Shown here: piece by piece, positions 2,088 to 4,303 of the stretch | Position numbering within the stretch: the first letter of the stretch is position 1 | Layout: each line of letters opens with the position of its first letter | Virus record (IMG/VR): IMGVR_UViG_3300034012_001155 | Location: 1 to 34,168 of that record | Strand: one strand, 5' to 3' | DNA length: 34,168 nt | Source of the DNA: a virus | Translations under genes and position numbers: made by a program | The notes under the pieces: model-generated | Database searches by the model: none | What the model was told of the DNA's origin: nothing | The model's input: only the letters and a program-made list of their open reading frames with translations

Positions 2088-2283
2088 TCGCAACCAGTGC
2101 CAGGCCTGCAAAAACTACTTCAACTCAACCTTTGCCTTTGATAAGCACCGCACAGGCGATTTTGGGGTGAGCCGCAGATGCAAAACACGCGATGAAATGG
2201 AAAGGATGGGGATGAGTATCAACTCAGCAGGATTTTGGATTTCTAGCGCCTATGGCGGACCTTGGAGGGCCATTCATGAATGA
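2071..2283 (+). CDS. FDXHR family putative zinc-binding protein
   Basis: 70 residues with 'CQAC' (C10, C13), the family-naming 'FDKHR' at 23-27 and C37 in 'RRC', followed by an 'EMERMGM' segment. C10, C13, H26 and C37 would make one zinc site. Small proteins of this type are common beside phage replication genes; their role is unknown, though DNA or protein binding is likely from the zinc-finger form. It overlaps RusA by 17 bases and the next gene by 8 bases. Confidence 0.85.
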   Translation: MKLTGDRNQCQACKNYFNSTFAFDKHRTGDFGVSRRCKTRDEMERMGMSINSAGFWISSAYGGPWRAIHE

Positions 2284-2497
2284 CAATGTCAATCACCCGA
2301 AACATTACAACTCACATCCATCGGGTGTGGAGTGCATCGAGATTACTGAGCACATGAACTTTTGTTTGGGCAATGCCGTGAAGTACATCTGGCGCGCAAG
2401 CCTCAAGGGCAACGAGGTCGAGGACTTACGCAAGGCCCGGTGGTACATCGATCGGGAAATTTCACGCATCTTAAATGAGAAAAACAATGAAGCATGA
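2276..2497 (+). CDS. DUF3310 family protein
   Basis: 73 residues from the ATG at 2276, chosen because GGAGGG (2264-2269) sits six bases upstream; an in-frame upstream start at 2252 lacks this. The motifs 'NHPKHYNSHPSGVECIEI', 'LGNAVKYIWRA' and 'EDLRKARWYIDREI' are the DUF3310 signature. These small phage proteins have sometimes been labelled nucleotide-kinase-associated, but the function is not established. It begins inside the previous gene and ends inside the next, so expression should be coupled. Confidence 0.9.
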   Translation: MNDNVNHPKHYNSHPSGVECIEITEHMNFCLGNAVKYIWRASLKGNEVEDLRKARWYIDREISRILNEKNNEA

Positions 2498-2813
2498 TCC
2501 GCACGCCGCAGTCGATTACATCATTAAGCACGCGAAACAATTTGCTGACGCAAAAGCGCAGCGCGTGTACCTTGAAGAATTCCGAAAGAGCAAGAAGGCT
2601 TTGCTTATGAAGCAATCGCTTGAGACAGCGCTAGGCGCTCAAGAGCGTGACGCTTACGCGCACCCCGAGTACATTGAACTGCTGAGGGGTATTGAAATTG
2701 CAGTGCAAGTTGAGGAGAAATTAAGATGGGATTTGATCGCAGCGCAAGCGAGAGTGGACATTTGGAGAACGGAACAAGCAAACCTCAGGAACGAGGGCAA
2801 GGCCACGATCTGA
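2475..2813 (+). CDS. Hypothetical phage protein, helical, 112 aa
   Basis: Not recognised by name. Nearly all of it predicts as charged helices: 'ADAKAQRVYLEEFRKSKKALLM', 'GAQERDAYAHPEYIELLRG' and 'LRWDLIAAQARVDIWRTEQANLR'. Comparable small helical proteins occur next to phage recombination or replication genes, but I know of no proven function. Two starts are possible: ATG 2475, or ATG 2487, which follows GAGA and gives 108 residues; both overlap DUF3310. The stop overlaps the next start as TGATG. Confidence 0.75.
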   Translation: MRKTMKHDPHAAVDYIIKHAKQFADAKAQRVYLEEFRKSKKALLMKQSLETALGAQERDAYAHPEYIELLRGIEIAVQVEEKLRWDLIAAQARVDIWRTEQANLRNEGKATI

Positions 2814-3031
2814 TGAGCAACGATGGCCGCCACAAGCAAATGCTGGCAGACCTGGCTGACTTTCTCGGCGCCGTAGCGTTTGAGGACGATAAGGGCTGGA
2901 CTGAGGAGGTGTACGCCGAGGGCTGGAGCGCTGGCTTCAGGTCGGGATTGGCTTACGCCGCAAAGATTGCGCAATCACAAGGCAGGGGCTGGGGCATTGA
3001 GCATGCTGAGCAGATCCGCAAAGCGTTATGA
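2813..3031 (+). CDS. Hypothetical small protein, 72 aa
   Basis: I choose ATG 2813 because it forms a TGATG coupling with the previous stop; an in-frame ATG at 2726 would prepend 29 unlike, low-complexity residues. The product has an acidic helix 'KQMLADLADFLGAVAFEDD' and a second 'AGFRSGLAYAAKIAQ'. No membrane segment, cysteine pair or enzyme motif is visible. It ends in ATGA overlap with the remnant start of the Ref-like gene, which shows this was the original operon neighbour before the insertion at 3121. Confidence 0.65.
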   Translation: MSNDGRHKQMLADLADFLGAVAFEDDKGWTEEVYAEGWSAGFRSGLAYAAKIAQSQGRGWGIEHAEQIRKAL

Positions 3032-3123
3032 CCAACGAAGAGAAAAAGCACCTCGATAAGGTGGCTGCCATTGGCTGCGTGCTGTGTCACTTGCAAGGCA
3101 CGCCTGGTACGCCAGCAGAGTAG
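3028..3123 (+). pseudogene. Displaced 5' end of the Ref-like nuclease gene (31 codons, then TAG)
   Basis: This ORF, coupled by ATGA to its upstream neighbour, encodes 31 residues that match the first 31 of the intact nuclease at 3682-4008 (26 of 31 identical), including the 'CVLC' zinc pair and 'CHLQG'. It stops at TAG exactly where the match ends. It therefore looks like the original gene start, cut off by an insertion between 3120 and 3121. Joining 3028-3120 directly to 3775-4008 gives an uninterrupted 327-base ORF, the same length as the present gene. It may still be translated into a short peptide. Confidence 0.85.
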
Positions 3124-3131
3124 CAATTTTG

Positions 3132-3155
3132 TACACCATTCGCTACAATGGTGTA
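3132..3155 (+). promoter_or_regulatory. 9-bp perfect inverted repeat just before the homing-endonuclease RBS
   Basis: TACACCATT (3132-3140) and AATGGTGTA (3147-3155) are exact inverse complements around a six-base loop. The second arm ends where the strong Shine-Dalgarno AAAGGAGG (3155-3162) begins. A hairpin here could tune translation of the endonuclease, as hairpins do for some free-standing T4 endonuclease genes, or be a protein-binding operator. A TACAAT (3144-3149) lies inside but has no convincing -35 partner. Confidence 0.65.
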
Positions 3156-3167
3156 AAGGAGGTGGTC

Positions 3168-3689
3168 ATGGAAGAGTTATGGAAAGAGTGTTTTGGCTGG
3201 GAAAATTTTTATGAAGTTTCAGCCTTCGGCAACATAAGATCAAAAAGACGGCCTGTTCCAACTCGGTTTGGCATTTCAACACGAGGAGGCATAGTCTTAA
3301 AAAAAATTGTGGCAAAAAATGGTTATGAATGCGTTAACTTGACGGGTGGAGGATGCAGGAAACAAGAGCTTGTTCATCGGCTCGTCTTGCTCACTTTTGT
3401 AGGTGAGCCTGAGCAAAATCAAGAGGCTTGTCACAATGACGGCATCAGAATTAATAACTATTTAACTAATCTTCGATGGGACACGATTAAAAACAACCAT
3501 GCTGATAAGAAAAAACATGGGACATGGCAAGCTGGAGAGAAAAATCCATTTGCAAAATTAACAAATGAAGAAGCTGGAAAAATTAGGCAAAGCAATGATT
3601 CATTAAACAAATTGGCTGAAAAATTTGGAGTGTCAAAAAACTGTATTAGCCGTATAAAATGTCAAAAAACTTATATCTATTATGAATAA
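3168..3689 (+). CDS. HNH homing endonuclease with NUMOD4 and C-terminal HTH
   Basis: 173 residues. The N-terminal NUMOD4-type segment 'LWKECFGWENFYEVSAFGNI' is followed by an HNH core with 'VHRLVLLTF', 'ACHNDGIRINNYLTNLRW' and 'NNHADKKKHGTW', then a helix-turn-helix tail with 'LAEKFGVSKNCISRI' and preceding 'LTNEEAGKIRQ'. This is the standard build of free-standing phage homing endonucleases: nuclease core plus DNA-reading modules. The ATG at 3168 is supported by AAAGGAGG five bases upstream; an earlier in-frame start at 3084 lies in the target remnant. The gene is AT-rich, unlike its neighbours. Its stop (3687-3689) overlaps the restarted nuclease gene, whose ATG is at 3682. Confidence 0.92.
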   Translation: MEELWKECFGWENFYEVSAFGNIRSKRRPVPTRFGISTRGGIVLKKIVAKNGYECVNLTGGGCRKQELVHRLVLLTFVGEPEQNQEACHNDGIRINNYLTNLRWDTIKNNHADKKKHGTWQAGEKNPFAKLTNEEAGKIRQSNDSLNKLAEKFGVSKNCISRIKCQKTYIYYE

Positions 3690-4008
3690 AGAAGAAAAAA
3701 AACATTTGAGCAAAGTTGCCGCAATTGGTTGTGTTTTATGCCATCTTCAGGGCAATCCTGGCACTCCGAGTGAAATCCATCACCCCAGGAAGGGCACGGG
3801 CATGGCCCAGCGCGCAAGCCACTGGGACGCGATACCGCTATGCCCTGAGCACCATAGGGGACGCACTGGCATCCATGGCATGGGTATCAAAGCGTTTACT
3901 AAGCATTACCAGGTGGATGAGGCTGAACTGCTGCATGTGACACGCCGTTTAGTTGCCTACCATGACCACTTGTCGGATGGATGGCGTGTGTCTACACAAG
4001 TGGATTAA
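3682..4008 (+). CDS. Ref-like HNH nuclease with recoded N-terminus
   Basis: 108 residues resembling the phage P1 Ref (recombination enhancement function) family of small HNH nucleases. It has 'CVLC' (C17, C20), 'IHHPRKGTGMAQR' (H33, H34) and 'PLCPEHHRG' (C54, H57, H58), which are the zinc and HNH residues, then 'GIKAFTKHYQVDEAELL'. P1 Ref cuts DNA in RecA filaments. The first 31 codons are AT-rich and belong to the inserted element, while codons from ATC 3775 on return to the phage's normal usage, so the gene is a chimera. Expression is now coupled to the endonuclease gene (overlap 3682-3689) instead of its original upstream neighbour. Confidence 0.85.
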   Translation: MNKEEKKHLSKVAAIGCVLCHLQGNPGTPSEIHHPRKGTGMAQRASHWDAIPLCPEHHRGRTGIHGMGIKAFTKHYQVDEAELLHVTRRLVAYHDHLSDGWRVSTQVD

Positions 4009-4066
4009 ATGAGAGTACGATTGAGTCTCAGTAGCAAACAACGCAAACCAACCAGGAGCAAACGAC

Positions 4067-4267
4067 ATGCAACAAACAACGATGAACGATGACCGCAAAA
4101 CTTGGAAGCACAAAGGTAGTGACGGGCGTTTTCATGTATGGCACGCAGGCAAAAACCTGTACTACATTACCGACGGCAAGGACGGCATCATTGTCGGTTG
4201 CTGTACACAATTTGGAACTGCGTTTTCAGTGGCTTCCCGTCATGCACGCCTTGCCTTAGCTAATTAA
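4067..4267 (+). CDS. Hypothetical protein, 66 aa
   Basis: Unknown family. Aromatic-rich start 'KTWKHKGSDGRFHVWHAGKNLYYITDG', then 'GIIVGCCTQFGTAFSVASRHARLALA'. Predicts as a small beta-sheet with a final helix. AGGAG (4054-4058) precedes the ATG by eight bases inside 'ACCAGGAGCAAAC', a leader that is repeated before the next gene. No enzyme motif or signal peptide. Confidence 0.6.
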   Translation: MQQTTMNDDRKTWKHKGSDGRFHVWHAGKNLYYITDGKDGIIVGCCTQFGTAFSVASRHARLALAN

Positions 4268-4303
4268 ACCCAGGAACTACGGCCCCACCACCAGGAGCAA
4301 ACC

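Follow-up and report, generated by a model that had tools for sequence, protein, structure and literature searches.

A probable HNH homing cassette that carries a replacement 5' end for the phage Ref gene it interrupts

WHO elements of Torulaspora and Lachancea yeasts combine an endonuclease gene with a replacement end of their target gene FBA1. According to the available text of PMC7282813, the 3' end of FBA1 is replaced at each integration, allele-specific cutting and resistance were shown, homing was proposed to leave an intact chimeric target and a displaced fragment, an essential homology arm, and a faster evolution of the target gene end was proposed. In fungal mitochondria, mORFs provide new carboxy ends of atp6, atp9, cox2 and nad3 (Allomyces atp6, Glomus sp.); in Glomus atp6 the two ends share 63.5% of their bases and 91% of their residues, and the nuclease is a LAGLIDADG protein (PMC3630166, available text). 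For relatives of phage T4, the accessible part of PMC2988022 describes the HNH genes mobA and mobE as inserted in phage genes, with co-conversion of the flanks in homing.

Here we describe a locus in the window, that is, the whole stretch of 34,168 nucleotides that was analysed (IMG/VR virus record IMGVR_UViG_3300034012_001155). We posit, with a probability of roughly 0.8, that positions 3121-3774 are a mobile homing cassette composed of an I-HmuI-type HNH gene and a replacement 5' end of its target, Ref. The features of the locus are as follows:

2726..3031, plus strand: upstream phage gene, its stop codon overlapping the old Ref start (ATGA)
3028..3120, plus strand: old Ref 5' end, displaced, 31 codons, ending on a TAG at the element's first bases
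3121..3774, plus strand: putative mobile unit of 654 bases (leader, HNH gene and replacement 5' end)
3132..3155, plus strand: perfect 9-base inverted repeat in the leader, TACACCATT-N6-AATGGTGTA
3168..3689, plus strand: predicted HNH homing endonuclease gene (NUMOD4, HNH and a helix-turn-helix-like C-terminal part)
3682..3774, plus strand: replacement Ref 5' end, 31 codons, GC3 0.29, its start codon overlapping the HNH stop codon
3682..4008, plus strand: restarted complete Ref-family nuclease gene, 108 aa (PF16786, phrog_1588)
3775..4008, plus strand: native Ref remainder, codons 32-108, with at most 22 of 234 differences among carriers

The earlier note had described Ref as cut after codon 31 by an HNH element which then restarts it, and this arrangement is present at the coordinates above. 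The old 5' end encodes MTNEEKKHLDKVAAIGCVLCHLQGTPGTPAE, directly followed by TAG (3121-3123), and the new one encodes MNKEEKKHLSKVAAIGCVLCHLQGNPGTPSE. Recomputation reproduced exactly the previously reported counts of 26 identical residues out of 31 and of a different codon at 20 of the 25 common residues that have synonyms, the 26th common residue being the start Met. At the DNA level 59 of 93 bases are identical (63%, residues 84%), and in register the identical runs do not exceed 5 bases. With runs this short the two 5' ends should recombine poorly and the cassette should rarely loop out. The restarted gene was identified as Ref (RecA-dependent nuclease) by PF16786 (36.5 bits, cut-off 26.9) and phrog_1588 (1.6e-26), so that the gene name given before holds. 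It comprises 327 bases; as 93+234 = 327, excising 3121-3774 yields an ORF of the same length, in agreement with what had been stated. The claim that the element restores the Ref gene it interrupts is likewise borne out by a complete chimeric frame of 108 aa with the second 5' end.

That the ORF is restored upon removal would also fit an intron or another spliced or bypassed insertion, in which 3121-3774 would be lost from the RNA or skipped during translation and Ref would be read from its old 5' end. No further support was found for this explanation, which we consider highly improbable: there is no Rfam intron match in 2700-4300 at E <=1, the non-coding remainder amounts to just 47 bases, and the borders of identity among carriers take in the new 5' end. 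Splicing would moreover be unnecessary, since a complete Ref gene lies downstream. The Rfam scan, which covered group I and group II introns, returned RAGATH-31 alone (E 0.25, 22.2 bits versus a gathering threshold of 71.8), which was taken as a chance match. An intein was rejected on the stop codon at 3121, the separate ORF and the lack of a Pfam match to a splicing domain.

The HNH ORF of the proposed cassette starts with ATG at 3168, preceded by the Shine-Dalgarno-like AAAGGAGGTGG, a good ribosome-binding sequence, and ends at 3689. Its TAA overlaps the ATG of the restarted Ref gene (ATGAATAA, 3682-3689). Both Ref starts look translationally coupled, since the old one (ATGA) overlaps the stop of the upstream gene and the new one that of the HNH gene. 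The inverted repeat of the leader matched in 37 of 418 loci, every one of them on element-carrying contigs. As a regulatory hairpin this region was not supported, its RNA fold being not significant (z -1.59), and promoter-like and terminator-like sites occurred at chance level only.

The predicted nuclease matches NUMOD4 (PF07463; 40.6 bits, 3e-10) over the cut-off and HNH_3 (PF13392) with 23.3 bits, 1.5 bits below the cut-off of 24.8. With a profile of 34 relatives, I-HmuI (1u3e_M, E 8.9e-28) was the sole solved structure at E <=0.01, and an AF2 model (pLDDT 94.4) aligned to it with a VIA-align Z of 15.6 and an rmsd of 2.1 over 105 residues. By its NUMOD4 and HNH domains and its modelled fold the protein is of the I-HmuI type, and its cutting activity is predicted. 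The C-terminal part of the model resembles many helix-turn-helix domains (Z ~4-5), a likeness that may merely reflect a common arrangement. The WHO family proper, with its HO-like LAGLIDADG endonuclease, does not fit: Pfam gives NUMOD4 and HNH_3 only, and the nearest solved structure is that of I-HmuI.

IMG/VR was scanned with the Ref protein (78 loci) and with the HNH protein (12 loci). Sixty-eight of the 78 Ref loci could be read in register, the truncated or distant loci L069-L076, L078 and L079 being left out. Among these, 11 have the new 5' end and 56 are uninterrupted, while L068, with 73% identity and a gap at its start, was set aside. Nine of the 11 have the HNH gene and two lie on contigs that begin inside the element. 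The number 56 refers to loci and not to distinct alleles, as they comprise 36 distinct 5' ends and, with L048 and L052 also dropped, 39 distinct full genes. The earlier note had set uninterrupted Ref alleles in related phages beforehand as a test, and these 56 loci provide them; the search that it proposed for the same endonuclease in Ref genes elsewhere yielded the complete element on 9 other contigs, with the left part alone on L087.

Across the 9 other carriers, element bases 3121-3681 (561 bases) show 0-1 differences, the new 5' end shows none in 93 bases and the whole 654-base unit 0 or 1. The flanks differ by up to 12/93 (old 5' end), 37/302 (left gene, 2726-3027) and 22/234 (Ref tail), and the differences closest to the unit borders are at 3114 on the left and 3795 on the right. 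The layout is thus above chance, being repeated in 9 other contigs with a unit far better conserved than its flanks. The comparison of the window with L080 gave 1/654 differences in the unit versus 34/327 in the within-gene flanks (Fisher p 4e-16), which supports a transfer of the whole unit, new 5' end included, from one allele background to another. The old 5' end of the window is 3/93 from that of the uninterrupted allele L017; the old 5' end of L080 is 0/93 from uninterrupted L031, and its tail differs by 5/234. With the near-identical unit in L017-like and L031-like backgrounds, we conclude that one and the same cassette occurs in no fewer than two allele lineages for which uninterrupted counterparts exist. 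What the DNA shows directly is where the unit begins and ends, how little it varies while its surroundings diverge, that empty alleles exist and that the chimeric gene keeps its reading frame.

All carriers are metagenome contigs, with no isolate among them. L002 and L007/L083 match the window across the entire compared stretch, so the independent backgrounds number fewer than nine. In L009, positions 1-49 consist of about 26 low-complexity bases followed by the element's end, which may be an assembly end. L031 contains another complete Ref gene on its opposite strand (6931-6608; 97% protein identity to the query).

An ordinary free-standing HNH gene located before Ref, with the upstream fragment as a leftover of a tandem Ref duplication, would resemble what several relatives display, as in L085, L086, L104, L106, L107 and L108 the HNH gene lies directly before, and overlaps, a Ref-like gene. 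Free-standing nucleases of T4 are, furthermore, associated with co-conversion of neighbouring sequence (PMC2988022, accessible part). We nevertheless regard this explanation as unlikely, as the fragment stops exactly at the start of the element, it is most closely related to the 5' parts of uninterrupted alleles, and the conserved unit extends beyond the nuclease gene to codon 31 of the downstream gene. Against a tandem duplication, no second Ref 5' end was found upstream of an uninterrupted Ref (E <=0.05; in 51 of the 56 loci the upstream DNA spans 700 bases or more), and the second complete Ref of L031 is on the other strand.

We posit instead that the homing cassette spreads as follows. During co-infection, the nuclease would cut or nick empty Ref alleles near codons 31/32, and the break would be repaired on the donor as template, so that the cassette is copied in. 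The remainder of Ref would provide homology on the right, and the displaced 5' fragment together with the genes before it would do so on the left. The outcome would be an old 5' fragment, the nuclease gene and a Ref chimera of donor 5' end and recipient remainder, whose translation is probably coupled to termination of the nuclease gene. The replacement end itself probably came from a diverged, AT-rich Ref relative in which a nuclease gene lay directly before Ref. The first insertion event, including the formation of the left junction, lies outside what these loci show.

The earlier note had called the new 5' end a recoded copy. The codon changes stand (20/25); recoding is the less likely origin for them, given the 6/25 codons that differ from the intact natural allele L036 and a GC3 of 0.29 next to 0.306 in the HNH gene. 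Its alternative, the 5' end of a diverged relative, is now favoured. The old 5' end has a GC3 of 0.645 and the Ref tail one of 0.61, and 37 distinct native 5' ends range from 0.355 to 0.71. The native end with the lowest GC3, that of L036 (with L048 and L052), is also the nearest to the new one (77/93 bases), and codon divergence as high as that between old and new ends (at least 0.80) occurs in 18 of 630 native pairs, or 9 of 595 without L036. In view of the closeness to L036, the HNH-like codon usage and the equally diverged native pairs, capture from a diverged, AT-rich Ref relative is the simplest origin of the new 5' end and a more probable one than recoding.

L036, L048 and L052 have an intact Ref with an AT-rich 5' end and could represent a source lineage or a footprint of past homing; the HNH profile found no match in the DNA examined of these three loci. 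To trace a direct donor, 21 bases of the new 5' end were searched for as an exact match; this gave only 11 contigs, all of them already known, and no donor. In the six loci with the donor-type layout, no Ref remnant was found upstream of the HNH gene (L106 has only about 260 bases upstream), and in L105 a Ref match lies downstream of the HNH gene. L085 and L086 are 93% identical over the HNH 3' half and Ref 5' part (528 bases), while their outer flanks have no match. In L032 (4399-5004) and L034, another HNH-like gene, weakly similar to the HNH profile, extends exactly onto the start codon of Ref. Upstream of it no remnant of Ref was found, and both loci are counted as uninterrupted. We take this gene to have an AP2-like end. 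A test for faster evolution of the Ref 5' end in the 39 distinct genes gave a weak signal (synonymous codon difference 0.452 vs 0.388).

These comparisons also bear on a scenario of recoding under selection, in which the cassette would have made a second copy of the 5' end of its target and later altered the codons of this copy so that its nuclease no longer recognised it. Such a scenario would explain why 20/25 codons but just 5 amino acids changed and why 9 of the last 24 bases differ between new and old end. If the cut site spans the junction, some change would be needed, because an unaltered copy would recreate the site in the restarted gene. We find the scenario doubtful in view of the closeness of the new end to L036, its nuclease-like codon bias and the native pairs that are equally diverged. 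The changes also fall nearly all at positions already variable in uninterrupted alleles: in the 33 uninterrupted loci that are most like the old end, 45 of the 93 positions never vary, and the new end departs from them at 3 of these 45 and, within the last 24 bases, at none of 12. The last 12 bases are, moreover, common to the new end and uninterrupted L029, L032 and L034. These three loci belong to the 33 and could themselves be resistant, which makes the allele comparison weak evidence either way on immunity. The divergence of the new 5' end may, as the earlier note had proposed, shield the new allele from the cassette's own nuclease.

In order to identify other cassettes of this kind, the peptides directly before and directly after HNH genes were compared with each other. 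The source scans (best 80 loci each; the scan of genome contigs gave 11 loci) contained 250 HNH-match loci, of which 149 were non-redundant and 141 had flanks, with 702 other ORFs of the same loci as control. In these best-80 lists, matches of at least 28 bits occurred at 7/141 HNH loci vs 7/702 control ORFs (p 0.004), at 35 bits the counts were 4/141 vs 2/702 (p 0.009), and after removal of low-complexity matches by eye they were 5/141 vs 3/702 (p 0.004). The signal is modest. Matches at L161, L162, L255, L275, L281 and L299 were rejected by eye as low-complexity, distant paralogues or non-adjacent, and in 12 named phages with related HNH genes no adjacent match survived inspection by eye. 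Thalassomonas phage BA3 was rejected as a second case; its HNH gene lies downstream of an apparently frameshifted Ref.

The five survey cases are the Ref cassette family of the window, L174, L305, L401 and L111/L112. L174 (3824-5499 of a 112-kb contig) is a strong candidate for an independent case of the same layout, affecting lysin B: the HNH gene follows on from 54 old codons, after which the gene restarts in full with 344 residues, the two 5' ends having 34/54 identical residues and 21/32 differing codons. Its GC3 is 0.89 in the old end, 0.56 in the HNH gene, 0.39 and then 0.71 in the new 5' part and 0.87 in the tail. Lysin B is uninterrupted in mycobacteriophage Brocalys, the one record examined of 833 phage records matching by DNA; uninterrupted relatives were examined for the Ref loci and for L174. 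L305 and L401 appear to be further, weaker cases. L305 has 23 old codons (17/23 residues identical, 9/16 codons differing) and a weak composition signal (GC3 0.87/0.72/0.78/0.87), its target being presumably a lysozyme-like gene, and in L401 a short 5' fragment is fused to the HNH gene, with a 31-residue match of 58%.

L111/L112 (3526-4585) is a good candidate for a 3'-end mirror image of the Ref cassette. Here a nuclease-like gene becomes AT-rich towards its 3' end (GC3 falling from 0.58 to 0.38) and is followed by the HNH gene, at whose stop codon 30 codons of the displaced, old 3' end (GC3 0.70) start. A further candidate mirror case was found outside the survey. In L039 (1122-1940) and L041, a different HNH gene interrupts a small gene of which window positions 2252-2497 are the uninterrupted allele; an AT-rich 3' part (GC3 0.35) appears to be supplied and the old 3' end follows the HNH gene, the protein match between the two 3' ends being weak.

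It is an evenly balanced question whether end-replacing HNH cassettes form a general class in phages, with members for either gene end that cut a target, supply a diverged copy of the displaced end and leave the target whole and chimeric. If so, Ref, LysB, L305 and L401 would be the 5'-end cases and L111/L112 and L039/L041 the 3'-end cases, repeated rounds of homing would contribute to phage mosaicism through chimeric gene ends, and L036 and similar intact alleles would be what earlier homing left behind as footprints. Such a cassette would explain a nuclease gene inside a functional gene without intron or intein, the target gene staying whole while an apparently selfish nuclease gene spreads, and it predicts chimeric gene ends as homing scars. 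Natural empty, occupied and possibly footprint alleles are available for a comparison of allele-specific cutting.

The predicted nuclease of the window is similar to I-HmuI (PDB 1u3e) in sequence and fold. I-HmuI differs in being intron-encoded (PMC2988022, accessible part), whereas no intron was found at the window locus. Unlike the Ref cassette, the T4 genes mobA and mobE leave their target split into two polypeptides, and the accessible part of the same source describes no replacement end. The literature surveyed, with subscription journals mostly outside its coverage, contained no phage case of a replaced 5' end, nor is one described in the available text of PMC10448857 and PMC12724721. 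The analogy to the Allomyces atp6 type drawn in the earlier note is apt, as the mORF, too, brings a foreign gene end and displaces the native one (PMC3630166, available text), and the values for Glomus atp6 (63.5% of bases, 91% of residues) are similar to those for Ref (63%, 84%). The mORFs differ in that they act on the carboxy end, in an organelle and in the order gene, new end, nuclease, old end, which is the mirror image of the Ref cassette.

WHO elements likewise consist of an endonuclease gene and an extra target-gene end, with an intact chimeric target and a displaced native end. They differ in having an HO-like LAGLIDADG nuclease, in residing in yeast and in replacing the 3' end, whereas the Ref cassette has an HNH gene, resides in phage and replaces the 5' end, its resistance being putative. 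While end replacement as such is known from yeast and fungal mitochondria, a homing cassette that is phage-borne, HNH-based and replaces the 5' end thus appears to be new, and it would place a homing strategy so far described for these systems in phage and in the opposite direction. As far as the accessible account of WHO homing goes, the mechanism that we propose for the Ref cassette would be the WHO model with its orientation reversed, in which the upstream genes could serve as left arm too.
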